This document shows, piece after piece, positions 1-37,794 of a stretch of 64,000 nt of DNA (position 1 is the stretch's first letter; each line of letters starts with the position of its first letter). The position numbers and the translations under genes are program-made. Under the pieces are notes generated by a model, which was not told where the DNA came from, searched no databases, and worked only from the letters and a program-made list of their open reading frames with translations. Source of the DNA: Mytilus galloprovincialis. Lineage: Eukaryota > Mollusca > Bivalvia > Mytilida > Mytilidae. The stretch covers positions 50,220,805 through 50,284,804 of the forward strand of contig NC_134847.1 of assembly GCF_965363235.1 (NCBI RefSeq), in the 5' to 3' direction.

Positions 1-540
1 CTTACCTCAATTCCTAACTTTTTAAATATTGTCTATAAAAGACTTAACAGCATTCAAAGTTATAAATTCGAAATATAAGGTTGAATACTAGTCTTACCTT
101 GTCTTGAGTAACCAGTTGTTATATGGATGTTGATGAAAAACGCCTTGGTTCATCAGGATTTCTTTTTTATACTTAGTATATCATTTCATTTGTGGTTTTT
201 ATTTACTGTTGACAAACAAAGAGGGATTTATGACAAAACCACAAATGATGATTTTTTTTGGTAGAATTTACATCACATTTCACTTATGCATCAGCAAATA
301 TTTTTTATTTGTATATACATAAAGTAATCAGTACCCAAGTATTACCTTTTCCAAAAAAGCTTGATCGACTTTTGAATCTGTTAGCTGTGAACAGAAGTGC
401 GCTTCTAGACATAGTGTTAGTTCTGTTAAAGATGTAGGGTTTCAGTTCAGTCCGAATTCTACTTCGTCAAAATTATACCCCTCTTCCCTTATTATGCCAC
501 TTCATTTTTCACTCGTAAAAATGGTTTCCATTGCAGGGAT
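1..540. other. No feature recognised
   Basis: AT-rich sequence without a long reading frame, a recognisable repeat or an RNA gene on either strand. Confidence 0.5.
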
Positions 541-10650: not shown

Positions 10651-10656
10651 TTAATA

Positions 10657-12016
10657 CCAGCCCAGTAGTCAGCACTTCGGTGTTGACATGAATATCAATT
10701 ATATGGTCATTTTTATAAATTTTCTGTACAAAACTTTGAATTTTTCGAAAAAACTAAGGATTTTCTTACCCCAGGAGTAGATTACCTTAGCCATATTTGG
10801 CACAACTTTTTGGAATTTTGGATCCTCAATGCTCTTCAACTTTGTATTTATTTGGCTTTTTAACTATTTTGATCTGAGCGTCACTGATGAGTCTTATGTA
10901 GACGAAACGCGCGTCTGGCGTAAAAAATTATAATCCTGGTACTTTTGATAACTATTTACACCACTGGGTCGATGCCACTGCTGGTGGACGTTTCGTCCCC
11001 GAGGGTATCACCAGCCCAGTAGTCAGCACTTCGGTGTTGAAATGAATATCAATTATATGGTCATTTTTATAAATTTTCTGTACAAAACTTTGAATTTTTC
11101 GAAAAAACTAAGGATTTTCTTACCCCAGGAGTAGATTACCTTAGCCATATTTGGCACAACTTTTTGGAATTTTGGATCCTCAATGCTCTTCAACTTTGTA
11201 TTTATTTGGCTTTTTAACTATTTTGATCTGAGCGTCACTGATGAGTCTTATGTAGACGAAACGCGCGTCTGGCGTAAAAAATTATAATCCTGGTACTTTT
11301 GATAACTATTTACACCACTGGGTCGATGCCACTGCTGGTGGACGTTTCGTCCCCGAGGGTATCACCAGCCCAGTAGTCAGCACTTCGGTGTTGACATGAA
11401 TATCAATTATATGGTCATTTTTATAAATTTTCTGTACAAAACTTTGAATTTTTCGAAAAAACTAAGGATTTTCTTACCCCAGGAGTAGATTACCTTAGCC
11501 ATATTTGGCACAACTTTTTGGAATTTTGGATCCTCAATGCTCTTCAACTTTGTATTTATTTGGCTTTTTAACTATTTTGATCTGAGCGTCACTGATGAGT
11601 CTTATGTAGACGAAACGCGCGTCTGGCGTAAAAAATTATAATCCTGGTACTTTTGATAACTATTTACACCACTGGGTCGATGCCACTGCTGGTGGACGTT
11701 TCGTCCCCGAGGGTATCACCAGCCCAGTAGTCAGCACTTCGGTGTTGACATGAATATCAATTATATGGTCATTTTTATAAATTTTCTGTACAAAACTTTG
11801 AATTTTTCGAAAAAACTAAGGATTTTCTTACCCCAGGAGTAGATTACCTTAGCCATATTTGGCACAACTTTTTGGAATTTTGGATCCTCAATGCTCTTCA
11901 ACTTTGTATTTATTTGGCTTTTTAACTATTTTGATCTGAGCGTCACTGATGAGTCTTATGTAGACGAAACGCGCGTCTGGCGTAAAAAATTATAATCCTG
12001 GTACTTTTGATAACTA
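10657..12016. repeat. 354-bp tandem array, 3.8 near-identical copies
   Basis: Unit starts CCAGCCCAGTAGTCAGCACT occur at 10657, 11011, 11365 and 11719, an exact 354-bp period. The fourth unit stops at about 12016. Reading the copies side by side I see one substitution (GTTGAA for GTTGAC, near 11040). Each unit has GACGAAACGCGCGTCTGGCG and an inverted GGACGTTTCGTCCCCGAGG. Diverged single units occur at 19.4, 22.1, 32.6, 38.5, 39.3 and 59.4 kb. Confidence 0.97.
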
Positions 12017-14885: not shown

Positions 14886-16624
14886 TTGTCAAGTTTGATA
14901 TTGCCGTTGTTTAGGAAAGGTGATTATGACAGACCTTGGGAATCTCTGATGCCCCGACTTTTCTTGACGGGGGAATTTGATCTATACACGTTTCCATTGC
15001 CGGAGACTTTAGGAGATTTATCTATGCGAAATAAATACTTCTTTTTAAAAAAAGTACAATTAATATTTTGATCTAGTTGTTACTTTAATTTATCAAGTAA
15101 CTATTGTCGAAATAATTTGACTATTTGAATTTACATTATACTTTATTATTATTGATAATATTTTTTTCAAACCGAAAACAAATGATAATGAACTAAGACC
15201 TGGAGCCAACCAAAGCAAGTAAATGTCTGGTAATAATATATATAGCTGACAATGATCATTTCTGTTCCTTATCAAATTATTACATGATATTACTACAGGT
15301 AGGGATTACCATGTGCAGTGATCATCTGAATTTTTTTTTGACATACAAAACAATGTAAACGTCATGAATTTCACTTTTTATGACACATACCTGTAACCGT
15401 CAATCACTTAAAATACAACCAATAACAAAAGATTCACAAAATCAAAATATATACAAGTCAACAAAAGAAACGAACATACACAAGTTCTAATTCCAACTTA
15501 TCATAGAATATAAAAAATAGAAAACTGTTAGATTATCCTATAAAACATTCATTTACAAATCAAATGAATATGCTTTAAAGTATCTGACCAAATTGGAAAG
15601 TTAGAAAATACCGAGTTATTGAACACAGGGGTCACAATTATTTTGCAAAAAATGATGACAAAAGTGGTCACGTAATTTCGACGATGAGAATTTAGAATTC
15701 AAAATCTGCAAAGGCCTTTAAAATTCTATGCAGACTATTTTTAAGTTTCAAATTTTAATTTCGGATATCGATTTATGATTTTTCTTTAGTAACACAAAGA
15801 TTTTTTTTAGTAACACAAAGATTTTTAAAATAACAAATATAAAAAAACAGAAATTTGCGTTTTTGCCTTTTATCAATGGTTTTGATAATAAATGTATGCT
15901 CTGTAAAAATTAAAACAATTGGGCAATTATTTACTTTGGTACAGTGTATCCAATTTCATTATATATGGACAATACATAGTATGTATCGATTCTTTTGTTG
16001 ACCTAATATACTGTACTCAAATTTATCTTTTTATGCATACAATGTGTGTGTACCATGGATAGTTGCGGCCGTTGTTGAAAATTTATCTCATACACGTTTA
16101 TATCATACTAAAAATTGGTTTAGGTTATTGCCCTAAGTTTAAAACAAGAAATAACGCCTAATTACATCATTTACATTATATATTTATTTTAATGCATTAT
16201 CTTGTTGATATCAGGTACGTGCACTCGCATGCCTCGTATCAACAGTTGATCTAAACATATTAATATTCACCGCAATTATACTTAAACAGACAAAATCTAA
16301 TATTTTAAACTGAAGTAAGGTCATAGTTCAACTTCACCCGTCATATGTTTTGAGACATGAAAGTTGTTTTGTTTGATTGACTGTACAAGTCTCTGGTTGG
16401 TGTGAATTTAGGACATGTTGATGCAAACACAGAATAAATTTTAGGGGGAATTTCTAAACAGGATGTTTAAACAATATGAACAAGCTAAGTATATCATTGT
16501 ATACGTTGAAGCATTAAGAGATTTCGTAGAAAAGATTTACGTTTTGCAAAAATGGAATAGGACAATTTATCATTTGTGGTTTATCAAAATTTTGTGTGAC
16601 AACAAAAAAAAAGAAATTGAAAGT

Positions 16625-16633
16625 GTATATAAA
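16625..16633 (+). promoter_or_regulatory. TATA box of peptide gene 1
   Basis: TATATAAAG sits in GTGTATATAAAGAGCATGGA. The same context precedes the C1q gene at 26018-26026. Transcription would begin about 30 bases on, near TTCAATACAC. Confidence 0.65.
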
Positions 16634-16654
16634 GAGCATGGACAAGGGTTCAAT

Positions 16655-16682
16655 ACACTATTCCTGCAATATTCACAAACAG
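16655..16682 (+). other. Probable 5' noncoding exon of peptide gene 1
   Basis: A short segment between the inferred start site and a donor (CACAAACAG|GTATAA at 16682/16683). The C1q locus has the matching exon and donor at 26048-26088. The 5' limit is an estimate from the TATA distance. Confidence 0.5.
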
Positions 16683-16999
16683 GTATAAAGTCTAAAAATA
16701 GAGTTAACTTTATCATTGTTTTGATGTAATTTATTTGTAGAAAGGTATAACTAGAATAATTACTGTAGTTTACATATGATCAAACCTCGTAATTCGATTT
16801 AAACCAGACAAATCATCGTAACAAAACACTGATGAAATTGACGATTGTTTCTTTTGTATTTTTGTCATTTGTTCTGCTTTAAAATTACAGATCTAATGGG
16901 TAAAACCCTTGCAAGCATTTTGACGTTTGATTTTATGGGATTTTTTTACGATCATAACTGTTTAAGGCTAAGGAAGGATCAAGTGCTCACAAATGTGTT

Positions 17000-17240
17000 T
17001 TGTATGTTCCTGCCCCAAGTCAGGAGTAAGTTATTCAGAATTCAAAAATTAGGCCATTAGTATTCTTGTTTGAATTGTTTTACATTTGTCATTTCGGGGG
17101 GTTAAATAGCTGACTTTGCGATAGCGGTTTTGCTTATTGTAATATGACACATGGTGAGCTATAGCTGTTAACTTCTATGTGATTCGGTATGATAGAGATT
17201 TGTCCTATTGGAAATTATACCACATATTTTTATAACTAAT
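17000..17240 (-). repeat. Fragment of family A inside the 5' intron
   Basis: Reverse-orientation landmarks TTCCTGCCCCAAGTCAGGAG and TACATTTGTCATTTCGGGG are present, ending with a diverged ATTATACCACAT. It lies in the inferred intron 16683-17285. Confidence 0.6.
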
Positions 17241-17293
17241 TTAATGTCATTAATTCTTCTCATCCATATAAATTCTTTGTTTCAGATAGGAAA

Positions 17294-18323
17294 ATGCCTA
17301 AGACATGTCTGTTATTCGTCGTTATAGTAGTAGCATCTCAAATGGTTGTTACTTACGGTAAAGGGGGAGGAAGTTGTTATGCTCCTCCATTTGTTTGGGG
17401 ATCAGAGTGTAGGTATGTATATTTGATATATTATAACACGAGTATATGCGTATATATTATAACAGAAAGATAACTGAAGAAAAGACTGTTAGAATCATAC
17501 ATTGTTAAGAACTAATCCGACAATTTATCCCTCTGTATTTCTGTGCATATCTATGGTAATATATACGTCAGTTTTGTATTGATCTACATAAGTCATCAAA
17601 TGATAGGATTATTTATCGTTTTCAAAGAGATTACATGAATTTTACACAAACTGTGCACGGTCAATGGATATTTATTTTGCCTAACAGAGGTATACCTGAA
17701 CACTTTATTATCAACAAAGTCATAATTTCTATTTACTTAAATTTTCTAGTATTCAACTAATTCGTTTATACTTTAACCTTGACTAAATGTTTTGAGTACA
17801 CTGTACTATTACTTTAACACGCAAATAAGTTGACGCCTTATATTGAACATTTGAAAGAAGAAAAATTTATGTATTGTTTCTAGATCTAACTATTATTTCG
17901 AAGAGTTGTATGTGTATGTAAGTTGTCAGAATTATCTTTTGTGGGAATTGATGAAAGGTATCAGTTTGGCTATGTTTATACTATAAGCGTACGTGATCAC
18001 TCAATTAAATGAAAACTGTAATGTACATGTAATCGTATCTTTTATGCGCAATATAAAGCTTTGTTATTATTTAAATTTTCAGATCGTCTACATCAATTAT
18101 TGGAAACAACGGAGTAAAAATTAGATATTGTGTGAATGTTAACGGTAATGCAGGTACCCAGGTTTGTTGCCAGGGATATTCTCCTGTTGGTAACACTTTT
18201 CAAAGTATTGGATGTGGAAGTGGATCATTCTGTAGAACACTGGGATGGGGAAATACTATAGCAACACCGAAAATTAAATGTAAGGGATCCCCATTTGGTG
18301 CTTCGGTATCATGGAGTCATTAG
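17294..18323 (+). CDS. Secreted 8-cysteine peptide (gene 1)
   Basis: Two coding exons, 17294-17412 and 18083-18323, join in frame (AG|A) across canonical GT..AG sites to give 119 residues. The start follows a TTTGTTTCAG acceptor (exon from 17286), so a noncoding exon lies upstream. Residues 1-22 are a signal peptide ending TYG. The mature part is glycine-rich and strongly basic, with eight cysteines at 28, 39, 56, 68, 69, 84, 90 and 106, an adjacent pair VCC, and the ending SVSWSH. The size and charge suit an extracellular effector such as an antimicrobial peptide, but it is not a defensin, mytilin, myticin, macin or big defensin pattern that I know. A paralogue lies inverted at 31741-32455. 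An AATAAA lies at 18388. Gene structure is confident; function is not assigned. Confidence 0.9.
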
Positions 18324-18387
18324 TCAACAAAGATATTATTTGACTTATATATGTGTCATACGTTTTTATACTATAAATGATAACATA

Positions 18388-18393
18388 AATAAA
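18388..18393 (+). terminator. Polyadenylation signal of peptide gene 1
   Basis: AATAAA lies 65 bases after the TAG stop. Confidence 0.65.
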
Positions 18394-18770
18394 CAATACT
18401 ATACAAAATTATATTCAGATACTTAAGGAAATACCAGAAAGAGAATTTACTTGAGAATGTGCATGCTGCTCTCATGCAGTCTTGGTATGTCTGTTCTTCT
18501 ATTAAAAATTTGAGTCACATTTGTTTTTTTATGAAATATCGTTCAATTGTTTATTAATCCAGTCCAAAGCATATTGGGAAAAAATCACCTGCAAACATTT
18601 AAATTGAACATGTCCATTTTTTCATATAATCCGCGAGGACATTACAAACTTTAAGTTCACGAGTAAATGTTTTGGTAAACAGTAATAATGAATAAAATAA
18701 TGAACCTGCTACATTAATCATGATTGAGTGCACGATTAAAGTTTACAAGAAAAAGGTTATTCCAGTTATG

Positions 18771-18916
18771 GAATAACTGTAATATATTTTCTGTCTATGA
18801 AGAAATAGCATAAAAAATGTGGTTCACACTGCATAATCCGCGTAGTGGGTTATTTTAAAGTGTGAACCACATTTTTTGTGTTATTTTGAATAGACAGATA
18901 AAATATTAGTTATTTC
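18771..18916. repeat. Inverted-repeat (foldback) element
   Basis: A perfect 19-bp inverted pair at 18812-18830 and 18859-18877 (AAAAAATGTGGTTCACACT and its complement) continues outward, with mismatches, through the CTGTCTAT/ATAGACAG and TAATAT/ATATTA segments. The interval is MITE-sized and has no coding capacity. Confidence 0.8.
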
Positions 18917-19204
18917 TTATAATTTAATTCTAATTTCCATTTTAAACCGGATAAACCATGAAAAAAACGTTGATGACGTCACGGTCACATGACTAAATTA
19001 TGTCTATGAGCTGATAAACAAAACAACGCTAGCCAATCAGAAGACGTCGTGTTACATCCAAAACTAAATAATTTTAAAATAGAATTCTTCTGGTAAATGC
19101 GTCAATGTCATATAAATCCTCTTAGACGGATATGTACACCTTACCATCATTCCAAAAACCAAATATTTCTGACATTTTACATCAGGTTTGTTAAAAACAA
19201 ACTC

Positions 19205-19365
19205 CACTAAGATCAATGAACAAGGAAAACCATGAAATCACTCATTAAATTATCTATGGATAAGCTATTGTTATAGCTGTTAGCGTTTGTATTTGATGCA
19301 GTGTAATGGTTTTTGTGTCCTCTTTTACTAAATGTGTTTCCCTCGGTTTTGGTTTTTGATTAGTT
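19205..19365 (-). repeat. Fragment of dispersed repeat family C
   Basis: TGTCCTCTTTTACTAAATG and TTTCCCTCGGTTTTGGTTTT are the reverse complement of landmarks at 24740-24790. Confidence 0.6.
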
Positions 19366-20046
19366 ATCAAAGGTACCAGTCTTATAATTTAATACGCCAG
19401 ACGCACGTTTCGTCTACATGAGACTCATCCGTGACGCTCAGATCAAAATAGTTAGAAATCCAAAACAAGCACAAAGTTGAAGAGCATTGAGGACCCAACA
19501 TTCTAAAATAATTTGCAAAATACGGCTAAGGTAATCTATGCATGGAATAACAAAATCCTTAGTATTTCGAAAAAATCGTTATTTTCTCAATTCACTCTGT
19601 TCAATCCAAAATAAATTATTTTGATGTACTCTAGGCTCCTTATTTTCTGACGACAGCCACGAAAAGTAATACGTATATCTCAAATATTTACAGTTAAATT
19701 ATTTCTGTATTAATAAAGAAAAACACCATTATAGAGACTTCAGATTAATCTTCCTATACCCAAATACACGTACACACTACTCGTTAGATGGTCTCTAGCC
19801 TTTTGCACGCATGATTTTAAATAATAAGGGAACTTCTTACTCTATTGCTGTTACAATTAGCCCGCTACCTGAACTCGAAAATTCATACGCCTGTCGTACA
19901 TAAATATATTACTTTTGCAAACAGTTTTATTAAAAAGACCATATAATTGACAATCATGTCAACACCGAAGTGATGACTACTGAGCTGGTGATACCCTCGG
20001 GGACGAAACATCCATCAACAGTGCCATCGACCCAGAGTTGTAGATA
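19366..20046 (-). repeat. 354-bp-family unit split by an insertion
   Basis: 19366-19572 and 19934-20046 together make one diverged reverse-orientation unit. It runs from ATCAAAGGTACCAG, CGCCAGACGCACGTTTCGTC and TATTTCGAAAAAATC, then, after about 360 bp of unrelated DNA, to CATGTCAACACCGAAGT and ACCCTCGGGGACGAAACAT. Confidence 0.8.
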
Positions 20047-20149
20047 GTTAGCTAATGAGCATTGAGGTCACCGTTTTGTTTCGCTTAATCAATTCATGTC
20101 TATTGAACAGTGGTATAAAGTAAAATAACAAAAATAACGATCTCCGGGC

Positions 20150-20400
20150 TAAATTCAAAACGGAACGTCCGTAATTAAAAGAAAAAATCAAACGCTCAAA
20201 CACATCAAAAGAATAGATAACAACTGTCAAAAGAATAGATAACAACTGTCAAAAGAATAGATAACAACTGTCAAAAGAATAGATAACAACTGTCAAAAGA
20301 ATAGATAACAACTGTCATTTTCATGACTTGGTACAGGCGTTTTCTTATGAAGAAAATTGTGGATTAAACCAGGTTTTATACTATTATTGCCTTTGTGTAA
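20150..20400 (+). repeat. Dispersed repeat, family B, with internal minisatellite
   Basis: The family B start (AAAACGGAACGTCC) and end (TTTTCATGACTTGGTACAGG, AACCAGGTTTTATA) flank an expanded block at 20207-20316. Confidence 0.8.
20207..20316. repeat. 22-bp minisatellite, five perfect units
   Basis: AAAAGAATAGATAACAACTG followed by TC repeats from 20207, 20229, 20251, 20273 and 20295 without change. Other family B copies carry this segment once. Confidence 0.97.
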
Positions 20401-21240
20401 ATTATCTGGAAAAAGGACTTTACCAATGAACTATGAAATTAAATAGTTTGCCTATGGCTTATAGTATTGACAAACAAACCATACCCTTAAACCTTAATCC
20501 TGACATTTGATCCATAAGCATGAGGTCAAGGTATAGTAAATCTGCTAGAAAAACTGTACATTATACTATAATTCAATACATCAACTATGGTTGGTATATT
20601 GGTTAGTCTATCTGAGGCACGGACTTTACAGTGAAAACTAAACATTGACCAATTTAACAATAAACAGGGGTCGTGGTAGGTTAAACCTGTCAGACGGACA
20701 TACACACCATTCACACATTCCATACACCAAATTGAATTGTTCATCGCGTATAGCATGCAAGAAATTGTTGCGACCACGCAATATTAACATGGAACACTAA
20801 TTCATGAAATGGCATGGTTAGGTTAGCCCTGTCAGTCGGACATGTAGGTCCTGAAAGGATTCCCTATACTAAATATAGTTGCTCTTATAACTTAAACATA
20901 AATGAGAAATTGACATGAAAAATAGCTAAACAGCTTTTAAGTAATCAGTGAACCATGCATGGGAGGTTATAGATAATGAACATATGACAGACGGAAAATG
21001 CGTTACCTAAGGCATCTGTGTATAAGGTATTTAGAACATTGGTTTTTCGTCTTCTAAAACTGAAAACTTTTAGCAAATAGTTTTAAGCGTTGCTGCAGCC
21101 TTCAACTAATAACTCGCATCTTGCGCATTCGTTGCCAGCGAATCAATAAAAGAAAATTAACATTATAATGTAACCATTTCAGTCTAAATCAAAATGATCA
21201 AATTAGTTCCTGTGATAAACATGATAAAAGTTTCATATTA
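20400..21240. repeat. Diverged repeats around a CCTGTCAGACGGACAT motif
   Basis: The blocks near 20680-20745 (AACCTGTCAGACGGACATAC) and 20825-20880 (GCCCTGTCAGTCGGACATG) are diverged copies of one motif followed by a CATACACCAAAT or CTATACTAAATA stretch. A related stretch with GACAGACATGTACACCATAC lies near 33980-34010. No gene was seen. Confidence 0.4.
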
Positions 21241-21243
21241 TTT

Positions 21244-21500
21244 TCGATAGACGTTTCGTCTATAAAAAAAAGCATTAATTACTCTTGAATAGAAATAGTA
21301 AAACAACCAATATAAAGATATATTGAGGAGCTTTGTAGAATCGAAGTTCCAAAAGGTTTTGCCAAAGTTTAAGGTAATTTATCGAAAGGCAGATAATTTT
21401 AAGGAGGTCAAAATTTCAAAGTTTACCGGTAAATTTCTGATTATGACCATATCAATGATAGTTCATTTCAACACAGAAGTGCTTAATTTTGAATGTGATT
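21244..21500 (-). repeat. Old relic of the 354-bp family
   Basis: CGTTTCGTCTATAAAA, TTGAGGA.CTT, TTTTGCCAAAGTTTAAGGTA and CATTTCAACACAGAAGTGCT occur in the order of the reverse-oriented unit but are heavily diverged. The 64-codon frame here is not a gene. Confidence 0.5.
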
Positions 21501-22065
21501 TTTTAATTTATTTTTAATTTTGTTATTTAAATTCATCGAGGAGGATTTATATCAATGGTAAATATTTACTGCATAACACTAGCTTTGCGGCCTTAACATT
21601 TGGAAATCCTAAACATATTAAAAATTTGAAGAGGTGCAAAAACCAATATGGCCAAAGGTAAAGCTGAAGCCGGTGACGGAATCAGAGTTTTGCACAAGAA
21701 AGAAAGAAATCCTTAATTTAGAATTTGGTCAGAAATTTTATTAAAGCAAATTTTGATAACACAATATCCTTATGCGCATGCAAGTACCGAAACTTGAATG
21801 CAAATATCTCAGAACGTAATTGAAGTCATAAACTAAGATGTAAAATAACTCATCGAACTTATAATTAAAAACTCGTATTCGTCTGAAAAAAATATCAGTG
21901 TTGTTGGAATTAAATTAAGAATTTTCGCTCCTCTTGTTTTTAATTTTTTGACATATTCTCGGAATCCTTCTCGTTTTATCATTGTAGTGCCAATAAATTA
22001 ATTCCCCGCTAACCCCTACTTTTCTAACCGGTTTTTTGCCGCTTTTAAAAATGCTATATTAGTTG

Positions 22066-22165
22066 TCAAAGGTACCAGGATTGTGATTTAATACGCCAGA
22101 CGCGCGTTCGCCTACATAAGACTCATCAGTGCCGCTTAGATCAAAATAGTTATCAAGACATACAA
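22066..22165 (-). repeat. 354-bp-family fragment
   Basis: TTGTCAAAGGTACCAGGATT, ACGCCAGACGCGCGTTC and ACTCATCAGTG match the array unit in reverse. Confidence 0.8.
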
Positions 22166-22199
22166 GTACAGAGTTCGTTCTTATGTTGTACTGGTATAC

Positions 22200-22555
22200 C
22201 CCTGTCCCAGGTTAGGGGAGGGTTGGGATCCTGTTAATATGTTGAACCCCGCCACATTTTGTTTGTGTGTGCCTGTCCCCCGTCAGGAGCCTGCAATTGA
22301 GTGGTTGTCGTTTGTTTATGTGTAACATACATGTATTTGTTTTTAGTTCAATTTTTGTACATAGATAAGGCTGTAAGTTTTATCGTTGAAATTGTTTTAT
22401 ATTGTCATTTCGGGGCGTTTTAAGTCTGACTATGTGGTATAGGCTTTTCTCATTGTTAAAGGCCGTACGGTGACATATAGTTGTTTATTTCTGAATCATT
22501 TTGGTCTCTCGTGGAGAGTTGTCTCATTGGCAATAATACCACATCTTCTTTTTTT
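22200..22555 (-). repeat. Dispersed repeat, family A
   Basis: A long reverse-orientation copy, from GTCAGGAGCCTGC through TGTCGTTTGTTTATGTGTAA, GCCGTACGGTGACATATAG and GGAGAGTTGTCTCATTGGCA to TACCACATCTTC. Confidence 0.85.
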
Positions 22556-24355
22556 TAATATACGAGTAAATACAAAAATCCTTATTTATTTATACCCTTG
22601 AAAAAGGGTGTCTGTGTAAAATGTATGACAATTCTACAAATAACCATTTAATTTTAAATGACTTACATCTCAAAAACAAGTTACGAGCTCTTCAATATTT
22701 CTGCTTTTTTTTAGATCTTTTACTTATAAATTATCAATTTATAACAGTCTGTTGAAAAGATTGTTATTTCGAAACAGAGTACCGAAAATGCTTAATTGGA
22801 AGGCAAAATCATAAACGAGGTTGAAAAACAATCCTTACCCTAAATTCAAAAATAGTTGTGGTAAGTACGGTTGGATCTTTTTTTCACAAAAAATTGGTGT
22901 TAATGGCAGGCCTTGGTAGTCACTGTTGGGCCAATTTTCTTTGACGGTGTATTGATCTATAGCTTTTCTACTGCTGGATATTGAAGGTGATTTACACATA
23001 TACGAAATAAATATTTCTTAACAAAAATATAAATTTTTATTTACATCAATGTGTTACTTTTATGTATCAAATAACGATTATTTTGATAATTTGACAATTT
23101 GAATTCACATTATTCATTATAATTGTTGATGATATTAACCTATTCGAAAACTAATATAAAGAACTAAGACCAAGAGTCAACCAAGGCAAGTTACTGTCTG
23201 ATTATAATATATAACTGACAATGCTCTTTTCTGTACCTTATTAAAACAAACTAAATGATAGCGGGGCAAATGAAATGTTTCTTATTCATAGATGATCATG
23301 AGTAGTTTTCAACTGGAATAGATTGTGTACACTAGCGATTTGATATAATAAGAATATTCATAAATTATGTAAAATTAAAGACATTGAAACATGTTGCAGA
23401 AACATTGCATTCCATGTTAAATAGGGTGTCGGGTTATAAAGGATAAAGATCCGGTTAGAAGTTTTTTGCTAGATTTGAAGAGTGATCGTCAAAATGCGAT
23501 TAGATATTTGGATGAGAATTGATTGTTGAGAACCTTCCATACATCATTACTGGAATGTTAGGTTCTAGCTACCTTCTGTCGAATTTTACTTACAAGAATA
23601 AATAGTAAATCATTCAAAAGAGCTGTTTTCATATATAATATTAATCAGGTTGAAAGTTTAATCGCAGCTGTCTTCACCACATTCAGCTACAGGGGAACAA
23701 AATCTTCCCGTAACGAAATCTTTAAATTTTTCTGTAAAGCTTTTCATTTATAATTTGATACGCTTTCAGATCTCAGTATTACAACTTTCCTTGACGGGGA
23801 CAATTTTGATGTTTACACCTTGTTATTTCTAGGGACTATATGAGGATTTATCTATAATGTAATATTATATTTCTTTATAAAAATATAACGAATATTCTAA
23901 CATGACGTCTTTCAAACGCTTTGAGTACACACCCGTGGTAAAATATGAATAGATTGTTTGGGCTGTTCCGATGGTACTCCCACGGCAAATGCTTTTTCTT
24001 GAATGAGCTACCCGACGTCATAGAACTATGATGTCAGAAAATAAGCATTTAACGGGAAAATAAACGCTTGTGAAACCGAAAATCCTCACAAACTAGAAAA
24101 AATAAACAAACGATGTTAACACGTGTTATATAAGCCATTTTTGTATACTTATAAGACATATAAGTACAATTGTCATTTAGATTCATCCATATCTATCTAA
24201 ATATTTTATTGTAAATAGTTGAAGCATATCACTTATTCAGTTTGCTTCGATGTTTTACGTCAATGTAAAAGAGCGTTTATTTATGGAAAACGACAAATAG
24301 TGTCCTCACCTAGAGAGCTTCGATCCTAAACAATTGCCGTTGTCCTATTAGAATC

Positions 24356-24506
24356 GAAATAATTTATTGGGGCTTGAATATATATACGGGTTGTCCCTTT
24401 ATGCCGATATTTTACCCCTCGCATTCGCTCAGGGTAAAAATGTGTAGAATATAAGGGTCAACCCATGGTAAAATTACGATATATTCAAGCCCCCATGAAT
24501 TATTTC
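24356..24506. repeat. Foldback element with ATTATTTC ends
   Basis: 24356-24385 and 24477-24506 are inverted copies around GGGGCTTGAATATAT. The ends and outer flank (GTCCTATTAGAATCGAAATAA) match the ends of the element at 43664-44308 and its flank at 44301-44325. Confidence 0.75.
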
Positions 24507-24669
24507 TTTAATATTTGAAGCAATATGTATTCGTTATGTAAAAGTTAACAATCTTCAAAATAAACAATATATGACCAACAATGTCGTTTTTTTCTGTACT
24601 CAATAAAAAAAAAATAAGTACATGTAAGGATTACCTAGTGCGGTGATCACCTTTAATTTATTATACTTA

Positions 24670-24960
24670 TAAATAAAGGCAACAGTAGTATACCGCTGTT
24701 CAAAACTCATAAATCCATGGACAAAAAACAAAATCGGGGTAACAAACTAAAACCGAGGGAAACGCATTAAATATAAGAGGAGAACAACGACACAACACTA
24801 AAATGTAACACACACAGAAACGGACTAAGCATCAGACAAAATCCCACGAGAATAACAAATATAACATCAAAACCAAATACATGAATTTGGGATAGACAAG
24901 TACCGTGACACGTCTTATCGCCATGTGAATTTTCACTCAAAAATAAGAGAAAACAAACGA
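24670..24960 (+). repeat. Dispersed repeat, family C
   Basis: A noncoding repeat with ACTAAAACCGAGGGAAACGC and AAAATGTAACACACACAGAA. The second landmark recurs at 24968-24990, next to a piece of family B (CCATATTCCTGACTTGGTAC, up to about 25105). Confidence 0.65.
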
Positions 24961-25109
24961 CGCAACGTTAAAATGTAACACACACAGAAACGAACAATAA
25001 TATAACAATGGCCATATTCCTGACTTGGTACAAGACATTTTTAAAGGAAAAAATGGTGGGTTGAACCTAGTTTTGTGGCATGCCAAACCTCCCTCTAAGA
25101 AACCCTTGT

Positions 25110-25293
25110 CATCGCTCTTTATATATACCTTCAATTATTTTGTTTATTTGTTGTCACACACTGGAATATTTATAAGTAAACCACAAATGATGAATTGTGC
25201 TATTCCATTATTGCAAAACGTAAATCTTTTCTAGGAATTCTCTTTATGATTCAACATATACTTGTTCTAATTGTACAAACATCCTGTTTGATG
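25110..25293 (-). repeat. Inverted copy of the promoter/TATA segment
   Basis: The reverse complement of 25856-26035, with only scattered differences, including the TATA stretch (CTCTTTATATATACC on +). It forms a palindromic pair with the C1q promoter across a 562-bp spacer. No exon was found downstream on the minus strand; repeat DNA follows at once. Confidence 0.9.
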
Positions 25294-26017
25294 TCATGCG
25301 TTTTTTACGGTAAATCACAAAACAAAAAGAAGAAAACAATTTAAATACATGAAATATAGTAATTACATGTAAAACATAATTAACTGTACTAAAATTTCGA
25401 GTTACATAGTTTTCCTATAATATATTTTGAAATGCATTGATGGTAATTTGGTGAAATATAAAAATGATTTTGTATTACATTAAATGGTGTGTACAGTTCT
25501 GCTAATATATACTTGGTTCAATATCTCTCTTTCAATCTTTACTAGAAATGAAAACAAAATGCTAACTCCGACATATAGAATCGAATGGTTGGTGTTTTGT
25601 TCTTTATTGTGTTGATATATGGTACGTGCTCTCACACGCCTCGCACTAATCATTGACCTTTACATTTTGATATTCATCGTCATAGTTCTCAAACAATCAA
25701 AAAAAGTAAGGTCAATACATAAAAGTTCAGCTTCATTCATCAGATGTTTTGCGAAATGAAAGTTGTTTTGTTTGATTAATTGTGCAAGTCGTTTGGTGAT
25801 GTGAATCATTATCTGCCCATGCAAAAAGCAGCTTAAAAATTCGAGAAATTTTTGAACAGGATGTTTGTACAATTAGAACAAGTATATGTTGAATCATAAA
25901 AAGAATTCCTAGAAAAGATTTACGTTTTGCAATAATGGAATAGCACAATTCATTATTTGTGGTTTACTTATTAACATTCCAGTGTGTGACAACAAATAAA
26001 CAGGATAATTGAAGGTA

Positions 26018-26026
26018 TATATAAAG
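26018..26026 (+). promoter_or_regulatory. TATA box of the C1q gene
   Basis: TATATAAAG within GGTATATATAAAGAGCAATG is homologous to the TATA box at 16625-16633. Confidence 0.65.
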
Positions 26027-26047
26027 AGCAATGAAAAGGGTTTCAAT

Positions 26048-26088
26048 ACATTTATACTCAGATAAATTCATAACAAATTCACAAAAAG
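26048..26088 (+). other. Probable 5' noncoding exon of the C1q gene
   Basis: Ends at a strong donor (AAAAAG|GTAAGT at 26088/26089). The next exon would start after TTTTTGTAG at 26286. The 5' limit is estimated from the TATA box. Confidence 0.5.
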
Positions 26089-26330
26089 GTAAGTCGTAAA
26101 ACAGAGATCACTTCATAATTGTTTTGTTGTTATTTGTTTGTGGCAAAGTATCATTAAACTTCACTATATACTAGAAACAAATAATCGCTCACTAAATAAA
26201 TCGAAGTTTTGTTACGATGTTGAATGCATATAACTGATTTAAAAATATTTGTACAGACAAATTGTTTGCGACTTCTTTTTTTGTAGAATTCTTACACTGA
26301 AAGGGAAACGTCAATAAATTGATAGCCAGG

Positions 26331-28004
26331 ATGAATATGTCTCCAATGATCGTCATTTTCATGGTCATGTCTTTTCCCTTAATATCGTGCAGTTCACAGT
26401 CATGTGTTATGGACATATTAGATCAGTTTGATAAAATGAAAGTGGACGTGGCAAAGTCTAAAGGTCTGTTTTATTATATTGTTTAATAATGAGTGTCAGC
26501 AATTTTTTTTTAAGTATGAATGACATGTTGACAATAGACCAAATCTTTTAATTTTGTGTTATTGTTTTAATTTTTTTTTTCTTAATTGAATAAAAAATAT
26601 ACTGTCATATTTTATGTAAGTTCGACTTTATAATTTGTTATTAAAGACCCTTAAATGACTAATGCTAACCAATTCAAACGATAACGCTATCGGTCTTATT
26701 CATGTACAAAAGAAAATTACCAAAAACAAATTTGATATACAGCAACAAATTATGAATGTTTTGACCTTCAGGATAAATGCAAATGTAACGAATAATAGTC
26801 TTTTAATATATGCCTCAACAATACTACTATCGGAAACATAGATGCAAATTCGAGGTAACTACATAGAAAAAAACTTAACTTTATTAATTTAAAGTTCTTT
26901 CCGACTTTATTTCGGTTTCTTATCACCACAAGGTAAAGATTATATACATTAATTTGCGCCAATTAAAAAATCTCAATAACTGTCTGTTAATTTCAAAATA
27001 CAACATCTCACCAATCATTCGTTATTAGCAAAAATGTAAAATGAAAATACTCCCGTTTTCCGTTTTGATTATCGAGAAATCAAAACCAAAAAACGAAAAC
27101 ACATTTGTTTTTTATTTTGGTTTTTAAGAAATCAAAAACGAAAAATGAAAACGCTATCGTTTTATGTTTGTTTTTTTATTTTGATATTTCAAAACCAAAA
27201 ACGAATGGACGCAAAAATACACGGACATTTTTGACCCCTTAAACCTCCCTTAATTTTTTCTAATTCCAATTAGATAACACCAAAGAGACAAATTACGTGA
27301 AAAGGGAACGATCATTTGATTTCCTGGACCAGGAGCATTTTGGAAATGAATATAAATATCAGAAAATGTGAATATAATGCAATACAAAATGCAGAAATAA
27401 TTTTATTGAAATTGAACAAGCCACCATATAAAAGCAAACATTCCGTTCACAAAAAAAAATTACACCAACTTCTCTAAAACAGCAACTGGTTATTCTGTAA
27501 GAATTGATTGAATTAAATTATATAACAGTACTTCCTATGAAATTCATTTATTTGTTTGTAATGTAACAATTGGTTTTTTTATATATATATACAGCTGCCT
27601 CTGCATCTGTGAAGCCAGCATTTTTTGCAGCGCTTACACCGCATTTTACATTAACTGGTCTAAATTCCGTATTAAAATTTGATGATGTCAGAGTGAATAG
27701 AGGTGGAGCATATGACCCATCAACAGGTGTGTTTACAGCGACTGTTCAAGGACTTTACCATTTTTCCTGTATGATTTTGGCAAATCATGGTGCCGTAGTA
27801 CATTACCAACTGAACAAGAATGATCAACCATATATTCTTGGTTACTCACATAAAGGAGCAGCTGCAGACTCGAGTACAATTAGTGCTGTGATAGAGCTAA
27901 CAATTGGAGATCGAGTATTTGTCAAGCATAGACATACTGCAGCTTCAGAAGTTGTTTTTGGGTATGCTCACACGTCCTTTTCTGGATATTTTATACGTGA
28001 ATAA
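26331..28004 (+). CDS. Secreted C1q-domain-containing protein
   Basis: Coding exons 26331-26463 and 27595-28004 join at phase 1 (G|CT) to give 180 residues. Residues 1-20 are a signal peptide (MNMSPMIVIFMVMSFPLISC). Residues 25-48 form a short helical linker (MDILDQFDKMKVDVAKSK). Residues 50-180 are a globular C1q/TNF-like domain (PAFFAALTPHFTLTG, FDDVRVNRGGAYDPSTGVFT, GLYHFSCMILA, FSGYFIRE). There is no collagen stretch, which is the usual bivalve arrangement, in which trimers act as pattern-recognition lectins in haemolymph. The intron begins GTCTGT, a weak donor, but the phase and product fit well. The ORF start near 27570 is intronic and not real. The promoter is shared with peptide gene 1. 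Confidence 0.92.
26464..27594 (+). other. Intron of the C1q gene
   Basis: Holds A/T-rich DNA and, at about 27050-27235, a repeat-like stretch with AAATCAAAACCAAAAAACGA in direct and inverted copies. No exon was seen inside. Confidence 0.5.
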
Positions 28005-31740: not shown

Positions 31741-32455
31741 TTAATGGCTCCATGATACTGTGGCACCAAACGGCGTACCCTTACATTTAATCTTTGGGGT
31801 TGCTATATTATTTCCCCATTCTAATGTCCAACTAAATGAGTCATGTCCACATCCCATACTGTGGAATCTACCATCACCAGCCGAATATCCTTCGCAACAC
31901 ACCAGGGTCCCTGCATTACCATTTATAGTCATAGAATATCTTATTCTTAATCCATGGGTTCCAAATATTGATGTCGACGAACTGATAATAAATAAATAAA
32001 AAGTATTATTGCAGTTATGAGTACATAATGTCAATACATACATTCGATGATCGCATACTAGTGAATATTTTGTGCACTGTTAATTCTGTTCCTATTTTGT
32101 TTCTATGGTCTTATTTTTCGAACTTGTTATAATTCAGAATGCAAACACATAAAATGAGTTATATATCTAAAAGCTTATATATAAGTTGTACCTTAAAAAT
32201 AATGTCCTTTATGGATAATTCGTGTTTCATTAACAATTATACAAAATCTGCACATTTCCATATACCCCCTTTAATCTTATATTTTGGAATAATGTTATAC
32301 AGAAAAATTCTAACGAGTATGTATATAAATACGTACCTACATTCTGGTCCCCAGAAATTTGGGGCAGCATAACAACTTCCTCCTCCACTACCGTAAGTTT
32401 CAAACACCTGAGATACAACTACTATCAAGACGATTAACAAGTATATCCTAGACAT
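31741..32455 (-). CDS. Secreted cysteine-rich peptide (gene 2, six cysteines)
   Basis: Exons 32455-32337 and 31981-31741 have exactly the lengths of gene 1 (119 and 241 bp) and the same phase, giving 119 residues. They align with gene 1 without a gap, including the signal peptide (1-22, ending TYG), GGGSCYA, INGNAGT.VCC.GYS, IATPKIKCKG and SVSWSH. Cysteines 28, 39, 68, 69, 84 and 106 are kept; positions 56 and 90 are both serine. The mature charge is nearly balanced, unlike the basic gene 1 product. The acceptor before the ATG (TTTGTTTCAG) is conserved, so a noncoding 5' exon is expected upstream, but I could not place it. A polyadenylation signal lies at 31666-31671. Function not assigned. 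Confidence 0.9.
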
Positions 32456-32589
32456 TTTTTTTTATCTGAAACAAAGATAACGGCATACAATTTGCTTGAA
32501 TGGATTACAAGGAAATTTTTTTTTTACATAATTTGTCACCAAGCTTTTACTATAAAGTTGTTGCTTTGTTAATAGTTGAATAAAATTTA

Positions 32590-35760: not shown

Positions 35761-36204
35761 ATTAAAATATCATTATACTATCTATATCTTTATTTTTATT
35801 TCATTATTTATATAAATTAAAAAGTTAAAAGGTTAACAAATTGTTCCGATGCCAATAATATAGCAACATTATCTTACAATAAAATAAGTTCTGGTCGTCC
35901 ACATTCATCGGTTTCATCTTAAATACATTATAAAAGTCGTTCGGCAATATTTTTCAGAAACTTTAAAAAGACTTAAATATTATTCATTTCTCCACAAATT
36001 CACATTTGGGCGTCAAAACTTATATATCTGGACATATTTTCAAAAGGGCATTATTAATATTATTGTGTTCATTAAACATGTTAAATAGCTTTTAATCTAT
36101 TTGTAGACAATCGATTTTGATGAAAACGAACATAGAGCATGCATGTGTAACCAGCTGATATCGTGTATCGTCGCCGACTGAGATACAACCAGTTTAAAAA
36201 CAAC

Positions 36205-37794
36205 ATGGAAACCCCATTCCAAATCTCTGTAAATAAAGTATGTCTAAAACATGACGAAGATTTAAACTTTTACTGTTCATTACATGACGAAATTTTATGT
36301 CGAAACTGTGTGAAAATGGGACATCAAAAATGTTCGCCACAGATTTCAGTTTCGGAAATTGCAACAAAATCGAAAACTTCAGTGTCTGCTAATTTAGAAT
36401 CAAATTTCAAGATCATGACTGAGAATTTAAAAATTGCATTAGATCATCAACGTCACACACTTTCGAATATGGGTGAAAAAGAAGCAGAAGCAAGAAAGCA
36501 AATCCACAATATAAGAATTCGTTTCAATAAAAAGCTGGACGAATTAGAAAAACATCTTTTAAAAACATACACTGAAAAGCGTGAACCGATTGTCCCAACT
36601 ATTAAAGAAAATATCGTTACATTGGAAAAAAAGGAAAAGGAAATTGTGTTAATCATAACCAATACAACAAAAATTAAAGAATTCGGTTCAGACATAGACT
36701 ATTTTCTTGCCGCTAGACAAGTTACCCAAAAACTGTTAGATGAGGAAGACACCATCACAGCTACTTTTGAAAAGCTTCGCGGTGTCAATGCTTATTTTAC
36801 TTTAAATAGTGATATTGAACAATTTGTGTCAAAGCTGAACAAAATCGGAGATGTCTTTGTCGAAGAAATACCATGTTCAATAAATATGAAGTCGTTGATA
36901 GGAGAAAAGAAAAGTACAGAAAAGGAAAGACAAGATACCCCTATTCCGGAGGTGAAAAAAGTTCATGTTGATAAAGATGAAAAGGGGACACCTGGTGATG
37001 AAGGGGATATTTTCAAATTAAAATTGGTTCTCAAAACTAAATTTGAAATGACAAAGGGGTTTCTTAAGAAAGATTTACGCATATGCAATGGTACTATCAT
37101 GAAAGACCAAATAGTATTTACTGATAGAGAAAATAAAAGATTCATTATGACCACCCTTACTGGTGAACATCTTATCAATATGGAAGTAACGGGTAGACCA
37201 TGGGGCATTGCAAAAATCGACGAATCTAGACTCGTTGTTGTCACGTTTCCGTATGTCGGTAGTGGTTATATTGAAATATTGGATATAATGAATAATAAAG
37301 TCGAGAAGCCAATCAGTATAGGCGGACTCTGTCGAGGTATAGCTTACTATGAAGGACTTATTTATGTCGTCGTGTATGGCAAAGGGATATCAATTGTGGA
37401 TCTTGAAGGCGATGTTAAAACAGAAATTCCTATTAATGTAAACGGCGTGTTTCATTTAACTGTAAATGCAAATCGGATGTATTATACAGACGAATGGACC
37501 CACACTTTACACTGTTGTGATCTGAAGGGAAAGGAAATATGGCGTTTTAGTGGCGAGAGGGTGCGGGAACCACAAGGAATTGCGACGGACGAAAACGGGA
37601 ATGTGTATGTGACGTCGTATCTTTTTGATAACGTCACGGTAATTTCTCCTGATGGAAAACAGCACAGAGAAATCTTGAACAAATCTGATGGACTATTGGG
37701 ACCTTCTAGTATTTACTATGACAACAAGAAAAAATATTTAATGGTATCAAGTCGTGAACATGGACGAGTATCAATTTTTCATGTTCTTATATAA
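36205..37794 (+). CDS. B-box / coiled-coil / NHL-like beta-propeller protein (RING-less TRIM-like)
   Basis: A 529-residue frame from the first good ATG (CAACATGG). Residues 13-44 are a type-2 B-box (C13, H16, C24, H27, C32, C35, H40 visible). Residues 55-200 form a long charged coiled coil. A polar linker with KKSTEKERQDTPIPE follows. Residues 270-529 are repeats of an NHL-like propeller (GLCRGIAYYEGLIYVVVYGK, EPQGIATDENGNVYVTSY, GPSSIYYDNKKKYLMVSS). There is no RING, so it is not an obvious ubiquitin ligase. Bivalves have many such genes, often linked to immune or stress signalling, but this one's role is not known. A 10-nt upstream exon (ATGAATGAAG before GTAAGT, 35322-35331) could splice in frame to 36155 and add residues; the acceptor there is weak. 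AATAAA at 38250. Confidence 0.9.
   Translation: METPFQISVNKVCLKHDEDLNFYCSLHDEILCRNCVKMGHQKCSPQISVSEIATKSKTSVSANLESNFKIMTENLKIALDHQRHTLSNMGEKEAEARKQIHNIRIRFNKKLDELEKHLLKTYTEKREPIVPTIKENIVTLEKKEKEIVLIITNTTKIKEFGSDIDYFLAARQVTQKLLDEEDTITATFEKLRGVNAYFTLNSDIEQFVSKLNKIGDVFVEEIPCSINMKSLIGEKKSTEKERQDTPIPEVKKVHVDKDEKGTPGDEGDIFKLKLVLKTKFEMTKGFLKKDLRICNGTIMKDQIVFTDRENKRFIMTTLTGEHLINMEVTGRPWGIAKIDESRLVVVTFPYVGSGYIEILDIMNNKVEKPISIGGLCRGIAYYEGLIYVVVYGKGISIVDLEGDVKTEIPINVNGVFHLTVNANRMYYTDEWTHTLHCCDLKGKEIWRFSGERVREPQGIATDENGNVYVTSYLFDNVTVISPDGKQHREILNKSDGLLGPSSIYYDNKKKYLMVSSREHGRVSIFHVLI

Follow-up and report, generated by a model that had tools for sequence, protein, structure and literature searches.

A promoter-like block with a predicted noncoding first exon is shared by a small peptide gene and a C1q gene in Mytilus galloprovincialis

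Results

Peptide genes and a C1q gene at one locus

The window, a stretch of 64,000 nucleotides from Mytilus galloprovincialis contig NC_134847.1, holds peptide genes 1 and 2, a C1q gene, and two related blocks of DNA, block A upstream of peptide gene 1 and block B upstream of the C1q gene (Table 1). Peptide gene 2 is the closest relative of peptide gene 1. Peptide 1 matched no Pfam family at E up to 10, leaving known antimicrobial families, Myticin-prepro among them, unmatched; against sequences of solved structures the peptide gave a single match at E 0.29, which is not meaningful. A predicted model of the exon-3 domain (2 sequences) had a mean pLDDT of 74.2 and consisted mostly of strands, and a fold search with it returned 607 PDB matches at E <= 10 and none at E <= 0.001. 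The C1q gene belongs to the C1q-domain-containing family (PF00386, 81.2 bits with a cut-off of 23.7), and its exon 2 encodes an N-terminus that is hydrophobic by eye. Its four closest paralogs, P363, P381, P397 and P478 (80-90%), lie on the same chromosome. Scans for Rfam families and tRNAs gave no matches in the window.

Table 1. Positions of the genes, blocks and sequence elements within the window.
Feature	Position	Strand	Description and basis
Weak block-like copy (core promoter, donor) before peptide gene 3 (pep3)	90..253	-	nhmmer 253-173; donor string 106-90; gene body left of window
Block A far part	14919..15276	+	upstream of peptide gene 1; 75% identity to 22896-23245
Block A near part	16197..16748	+	promoter-like DNA, noncoding exon 1 and intron 1 start of peptide gene 1; 71% to 25604-26151
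34-base core	16527..16560	+	one A/B difference
TTTGTGGTTT	16573..16582	+	found six times in 97.8 kb, each in a block-like promoter
TATA context of block A	16626..16636	+	exact string also at 26018
Predicted noncoding exon 1, peptide gene 1	16651..16682	+	32 nt, without ATG, donor CAG/GTATAA; sequence and alignment
Peptide gene 1 exon 2	17286..17412	+	ATG 17294, signal-like N-terminus, first two cysteines; open frame, splice sites in common with peptide 2
Peptide gene 1 exon 3	18083..18323	+	cysteine-rich domain including stop; protein 67% identical to peptide 2
Block B far part, first copy	22896..23245	+	alignment to block A, nhmmer
Block B far part, degenerate second copy	23782..24655	+	pieces 23782-23889 and 24567-24655, other DNA between; nhmmer E 2.4e-6, 5.4e-5
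Inverted partial core-promoter copy	25099..25288	-	95.8% identical to 25855-26044; ends at start region
Block B near part	25604..26168	+	promoter-like DNA, noncoding exon 1 and intron 1 start of C1q gene; A/B similarity ends 26168
Predicted noncoding exon 1, C1q gene	26044..26088	+	45 nt, without ATG, donor AAG/GTAAGT; sequence and alignment
Junction interval	26169..26234		in intron 1, from end of block similarity to start of C1q paralog similarity; 66 bp
C1q gene exon 2	26287..26463	+	ATG 26331, signal-like N-terminus; similar exon in P363, P381, P397
C1q gene exon 3	27595..28004	+	C1q domain including stop; PF00386
Peptide gene 2 exon 3	31741..31981	-	protein 67% identical to that of peptide gene 1
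Peptide gene 2 exon 2	32337..32465	-	no block detected upstream

The DNA before the two genes is homologous

Blocks A and B each comprise a far and a near part, arranged colinearly upstream of their genes. The near parts (16197-16748 and 25604-26151) align at 70.8% identity over 579 columns (277 bits, E about 1e-76) and the far parts (14919-15276 and 22896-23245) at 75% over 360 columns (219 bits, E about 1e-59), whereas dinucleotide shuffling of block B (200 shuffles) gave at most 38.3 bits, against the 277 bits of the real near-part match. Pairwise alignment thus bears out the homology proposed in the first-pass annotation; its further claim of about 1.8 kb of colinear homology stands for the far and near parts, but the homology is discontinuous, with only one short weak match between them (15294-15336 with 24619-24662, E 0.003). 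Block B also contains repeat-like DNA at 24664-25014. The inverted core-promoter copy and the degenerate second far piece are absent from that earlier account; A/B homology extends beyond the 190-bp inverted copy on both its sides.

The elements previously named as shared, a common stretch, a TATA context, a start region and a donor, are kept in both blocks as judged by string positions. The stretch TAGAAAAGATTTACGTTTTG is located at 16527 and 25910, and inverted at 25233; the TATA context TATATAAAGAG is exact at 16626 and 26018, with an inverted occurrence at 25125. The start region TTCAATACA lies at 16649 and 26042, and alone is unspecific because it is also present at 20572, at 44944 and once on the minus strand. 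Splice donors follow at CACAAACAG/GTATAA in block A (GT at 16683) and CACAAAAAG/GTAAGT in block B (GT at 26089). The six sites of TTTGTGGTTT, which we take to be a RUNX-like site, fall in A, in B, in the inverted copy, in the pep3 promoter (two) and in a fragment that we call relic X; 95.5 kb around the C1q paralogs contained none.

The core diverges more slowly than the far and upstream parts. K2P distance between A and B is 0.142 in the core (95% 0.076-0.214), 0.320 in the far part (0.256-0.393) and 0.385 in the upstream part (0.298-0.470); exon 1 with the start of the intron gives 0.246 (0.143-0.353), an interval that overlaps that of the core.

A sharp junction separates block B from the C1q gene body

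Similarity between the two blocks ends at 26168, and similarity of the window C1q gene to P363, P381 and P397 begins at 26235, 26238 and 26239, respectively; the junction is sharp and located within 66 bp of the 5'UTR intron. Neither blastn nor nhmmer detected the block in the DNA retrieved from upstream of any of the four close C1q paralogs, for nhmmer 8 kb each for P363, P381 and P397 and about 17 kb for P478. Among C1q copies, noncoding K2P was 0.17-0.25 in eight of ten comparisons and 0.09-0.10 in two short ones, and dS was 0.25-0.30. In the C1q tree the window copy has a very short branch and no resolved placement.

The near block was found only at this locus

The near block occurs in three places in the mussel's own 1.38-Gb genome by DNA and pattern searches, all within 10 kb and including the inverted 96% partial copy. 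A genome pattern search for the 34-base core with <=3 mismatches likewise gave three matches, all at this locus, and none in the controls; shorter motifs at <=3 mismatches gave 33 matches against 19 in the reversed control, and 47 against 22. As a positive control, the repeat-bearing DNA upstream of P363 yielded 214 candidates and 40 scored matches in the same kind of search. The DNA search had low sensitivity: queried with the far part, it returned the query region alone and overlooked the 75% copy already known from block B. Restriction to a single locus can therefore be claimed for the near part and for its motifs, and does not extend to divergent copies or the far part. Many genome-wide copies with no gene attached, which would have marked the block as a transposon, were thus not seen for the near block.

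A search for other genes carrying the block added one weak copy, before pep3 and on the correct strand for that gene. Its nhmmer match (E 0.0099) scored 10.7 bits against 9.6 for the best of 100 shuffles, and its Smith-Waterman score was reached by none of 500 shuffles in comparison with A and by 2 of 500 with B. Relic X (C10:50202904-50203026) matches the pep3 promoter at E 1.4e-10 and A and B weakly, the scores being reached by 20 and 41 of 500 shuffles, respectively. The roughly 8 kb downstream of relic X contain a LINE-like reverse-transcriptase frame and no peptide or C1q exon recognised by eye. No block was detected upstream of peptide gene 2, nor in the about 4 kb of upstream DNA covered for peptide gene 4.

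Discussion

One duplicated unit, promoter-like DNA with a predicted noncoding exon, lies before two genes for unrelated, putatively secreted proteins, as had been proposed for this locus, and its alignment and its retained TATA context and donor agree with that description. We suggest that a promoter and noncoding exon of the peptide family were probably duplicated, and that one copy was joined to a C1q gene body within an intron. Three findings speak for such a capture: the 5' region is common to genes with unrelated coding sequence (PF00386 in one, no Pfam family in the other), it was not detected in the fetched DNA before any of the four close C1q paralogs, and the junction at 26169-26234 is sharp. 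On this view the block is the resident promoter and short noncoding exon 1 of a family of genes for small cysteine-rich peptides within the cluster, where it was then duplicated. Block B would have been joined to the C1q body inside the intron 3' of the noncoding exon, possibly by inversion or insertion, after which an exon 1 of the block type could splice onto the acceptor and ATG exon that the C1q gene already has. Such an exchange would leave the protein unchanged, because exon 1 lacks an ATG and, in both families, an intron precedes the exon with the ATG. Counting against this reading are peptide genes 2 and 4, before which no block was detected, the overlap of the core's interval with that of exon 1 and the intron start, and the merely weak match of relic X to A and B.

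The peptide family may well have been the donor. The weak copy before pep3 favours this direction; the tree, lacking resolution, and the distances permit the opposite, in which the block is an old C1q promoter, a copy of which was captured by peptide gene 1, while the remaining C1q copies either arose without the block or lost it. At K2P 0.32-0.39 the A/B duplication seems to predate the divergence of the C1q copies, whose dS and noncoding K2P are lower, so the window C1q gene may have carried the block before its paralogs split off; with the window copy also unplaced in the tree, the paralogs may have lost the block. The very short branch of the window copy would fit a founder. Set against these points are the four of four close paralogs before which the block went undetected and the copy before another peptide gene, and we consider a C1q origin of the block unlikely. 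We also consider it unlikely that a single inversion, its two breakpoints both lying in 5'UTR introns, swapped promoters between a peptide gene and a C1q gene, flipping the C1q body to the plus strand behind block B and peptide gene 2 to the minus strand behind the old C1q promoter. Strands and order would fit, the four close C1q paralogs being on the minus strand and the window copy on the plus, with peptide gene 1 on the plus and peptide gene 2 on the minus strand. Comparison of the DNA upstream of P363, P381 and P397 with window positions 28201-64000 gave mostly repeat matches and no recognised promoter before peptide gene 2. Profiles of four segments shared by P381 and P397, and of 560 bp beside the P363 exon, found before peptide gene 2 only matches to segment 1, which is repetitive (48 copies in the DNA retrieved); the comparison is a weak one, since conservation among the upstream regions of the paralogs themselves is poor.

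The block may be a working promoter. Transcripts could instead start elsewhere, the homology being a leftover of segmental duplication or some other conserved element, and the far part, 1.4-3 kb upstream, is likewise similar (75%). Yet the TATA context, start region and donor are retained at conventional spacing, the core has diverged less than either the far or the upstream part, and acceptors precede the ATG exons in both families, which implies an upstream noncoding exon; we regard a non-promoter block as improbable. The region is repeat-rich, and the inverted core copy adjoins a repeat, as might be expected of part of a transposable element. With the near block in only three places in 1.38 Gb, all at this locus, against 40 scored matches for the repeat DNA upstream of P363, we reject this reading as very improbable indeed.

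Capture of a promoter or 5' exon is a known kind of event, in which a gene body acquires a promoter and noncoding exon from elsewhere, as in retrocopies and other chimeric genes. As in retrocopies, the body here would have gained an outside promoter; unlike them, the window C1q body retains its introns and so is no retrocopy. A Schistosoma japonicum family of secreted-protein genes likewise has a shared duplicated 5' region with repeats nearby, its members having a similar core promoter and signal sequence; there the signal-sequence motif is shared and is reported from 34 dispersed genome contigs (PMC3434034), whereas the mussel unit stops in the intron before the coding sequence and was found at one locus only. 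An account of the tandem expansion of bivalve C1q-domain genes describes paralogs with conserved splice sites, and retrocopies as detached from their original promoter (PMC6835236). The window C1q gene similarly has close paralogs on its chromosome, but its 5' region is undetected in them and shared with an unrelated gene. In its predicted exon 1, peptide gene 1 resembles the mussel CRP-I genes, a secreted peptide family whose short exon 1 is 5'UTR only (PMC10138031); the main text of that study contains neither "promoter" nor "C1q" (0 occurrences each).

If transcription confirms the arrangement, the locus would be a compact natural case of an animal bringing the gene for an unrelated, putatively secreted protein under a control region that it already had. 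Both genes may then respond alike, and the locus could be the co-regulated immune cluster first proposed, with the peptide as a putative immune effector. The 5'UTR intron would then serve as a safe joint, since any body with its own acceptor and ATG exon can be spliced to a noncoding exon 1, and the locus makes it testable whether such introns aid promoter exchange in gene clusters of this kind. The C1q paralogs, with no block detected before them, offer built-in controls, together with a 66-bp junction and visible candidate core sites. Candidate sites in blocks A and B include TTTGTGGTTT and TTTTGCAA.

Shared block upstream of peptide gene 1 and the C1q gene

We compared the promoter-like DNA and predicted noncoding exon 1 before peptide gene 1 (block A) with the homologous DNA before the C1q gene (block B). 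Pairwise alignment recovered two colinear pieces, a far part (14919-15276 against 22896-23245, 75% identity) and a near part at the promoter/exon 1 end (16197-16748 against 25604-26151, 71% identity), with a best score of 277 bits against a maximum of 38.3 over 200 dinucleotide shuffles. The homology upstream of both genes proposed in the first-pass annotation is thus upheld, within tighter bounds; its colinearity holds for these two pieces, but not for the middle, which is unaligned save for a single short weak match (15294-15336 against 24619-24662). Block B additionally contains repeat-like DNA and a degenerate second far piece, found by profile search. The motifs named in that annotation were all present, but a string search placed further occurrences of TTCAATACA in the window, which is therefore not unique to the blocks.

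The TATA context, a start region ~26 bases 3' of the TATA, and the splice donor are kept in both blocks. Predicted exon 1 lacks an ATG and spans 32 nt in peptide gene 1 or 45 nt in the C1q gene, followed by predicted introns of 603 and 198 nt. Substitution distance between the blocks is lowest in the core, the most conserved promoter segment of the near part (0.142, 95% interval 0.076-0.214), followed by exon 1 and the intron start (0.246, 0.143-0.353, an interval overlapping that of the core), the far part (0.320, 0.256-0.393), and DNA upstream of the core (0.385, 0.298-0.470); a minimum in the core is the pattern that a kept promoter should show. The motif TTTGTGGTTT, which we take to resemble a RUNX site, occurs six times in 97.8 kb around the window, 6/6 inside block-like promoters (including those of peptide gene 3 and relic X, described below), and is absent from 95.5 kb around the C1q paralogs; the window holds five, against a mean of 0.77 and a maximum of 4 in 100 shuffled windows, a count that is not independent because several sites are copies by descent. 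Runx is among the conserved hematopoietic factors in the available text of an oyster single-cell study (PMC12064177).

Coordinates of genes and block copies (window positions unless prefixed C10, the contig on which the window spans 50220805-50284804)
Feature	Position	Strand	Remark
Peptide gene 1, coding exons	17286-17412, 18083-18323
Peptide gene 2	31741-32465	minus
Peptide gene 3	C10:50217309	minus
Peptide gene 4	C10:40972048	minus
C1q gene, exons	26287-26463, 27595-28004
Inverted core-promoter copy of block B	25288-25099	minus	96% identity
Weak block copy before peptide gene 3	253-173	minus	E 0.0099; orientation right for gene
Relic X, block-like sequence	C10:50203026-50202904		profile match E 0.075

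Distribution of the block

We searched the species' own genome (1.38 Gb, 331 contigs) with the near block from A or B and found three places, all at this locus; a 34-base stretch of the core matched the same three at up to three mismatches (controls 0). Shorter motifs at that tolerance gave 33 matches against 19 in the reversed control and 47 against 22, totals that exceed the controls and include some matches identical to each other; in both searches the matches with 0 or 1 mismatch were only the three in this locus. We reject the block as a repeat, since the near block lies in three places here: the many genome-wide copies that the first-pass annotation would have read as a transposon were not seen with the near block or the 34-base core, in a search that could overlook divergent copies elsewhere, the far-part query having overlooked its own 75% copy.

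The inverted copy includes the TATA context, is truncated at the start region, and adjoins repeat-like DNA; no gene was recognised by eye downstream of it on the minus strand, and it is possibly an antisense promoter or a relic.

In 15 stretches of DNA surrounding the peptide genes and C1q paralogs, blastn with the block as query detected no copy and gave one weak 55-base match (E 7e-4) to DNA directly upstream of the near part. A profile built from two sequences and searched over 575,814 residues returned both blocks and the inverted copy, plus two weak matches, one upstream of peptide gene 3 and one at relic X. The former scored 10.7 bits against a maximum of 9.6 in 100 shuffles of peptide 3 upstream DNA, and by Smith-Waterman lay above 500/500 shuffles against A and 498/500 against B; relic X was weaker, its score being reached by 20/500 and 41/500 shuffles. 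The two match each other (E 1.4e-10), and a 30-base pattern common to them occurs, at up to three mismatches, in those two genome places only (controls 0). Relic X has GA instead of GT at the donor position, then repeat and LINE-like DNA. Searching for further block-bearing genes, as had been proposed, thus yielded the weak copy before peptide gene 3, but none before peptide gene 2 or the close C1q paralogs P363, P381, P397 and P478 (profile scores <= -0.5), or in about 4 kb upstream of peptide gene 4.

The genes and the join

Peptide gene 1 and the C1q gene appear unrelated, because no Pfam family matches the former at E <= 10 and the latter matches the C1q family PF00386 (81.2 bits). By exon 3, the peptide family occupies four places in the genome. 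Peptide gene 2 lacks two cysteines of peptide 1 and any detectable upstream block; peptide gene 3 carries one in-frame TAG in its signal-peptide exon (L043 1157-1001, C10:50218157, minus) and so looks like a pseudogene. Myticins are mussel peptides; Myticin-prepro (PF10690) has 17 matches in this genome and none in 14 control genomes, in keeping with a genome that is most probably that of a Mytilus mussel.

A genome search with the C1q query returned 802 candidates, and among the 150 scored were P363, P381 and P397 (88-90% protein identity) and P478 (80%), all on the minus strand. At P478 (C10:50478308; stretches L016 and L052) the C1q exon is present, and no ATG exon like that of the window's gene was found in about 17 kb upstream. 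Similarity to block A stops at 26168 and similarity to P363, P381 and P397 starts at 26235, 26238 and 26239, so the join is in predicted intron 1, 5' of the C1q acceptor. An acceptor before the ATG exon is kept in P363, P381, P397 and peptide genes 1-3, so all six have the structure needed to accept a noncoding exon 1.

Direction and precedent

We favour the peptide family as donor of the block because of the weak copy before peptide gene 3. The distances complicate this picture: blocks A and B seem to have diverged before the C1q genes split, with a K2P of 0.32-0.39 against a dS of 0.25-0.30. Peptides 1 and 2 have a dS of 0.64 (95% 0.39-1.00), so the two blocks could date from the duplication that produced this gene pair. 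The C1q tree left the window copy without a placement. An inversion would account for the gene strands; the C1q-paralog upstream DNA that it predicts before peptide gene 2 was not recognised there, in a comparison limited by the poor conservation of that DNA among the paralogs.

Read from sequence, the case, with its putative promoter, is a variant of the already known promoter/5'-exon capture. Of the published cases found, the closest is a Schistosoma japonicum gene family whose members have a similar core promoter and signal sequence, in the available text of PMC3434034; mussel CRP-I genes have an exon 1 that is 5'UTR only (PMC10138031, available text), and antimicrobial peptide genes show strong presence-absence variation in the accessible part of a mussel pan-genome report (PMC7653742). 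Searches of the open-access literature yielded no prior account of this shared block.

Elsewhere in the window, self-comparison revealed two local tandem arrays, at 49755-52288 (period about 500 bases) and 10656-12016 (period 354). By eye, a 547-aa open frame at 36151-37794 resembles a TRIM/B-box and NHL-repeat protein, and exon-like frames at 46553-49060 (minus) resemble histone deacetylase.
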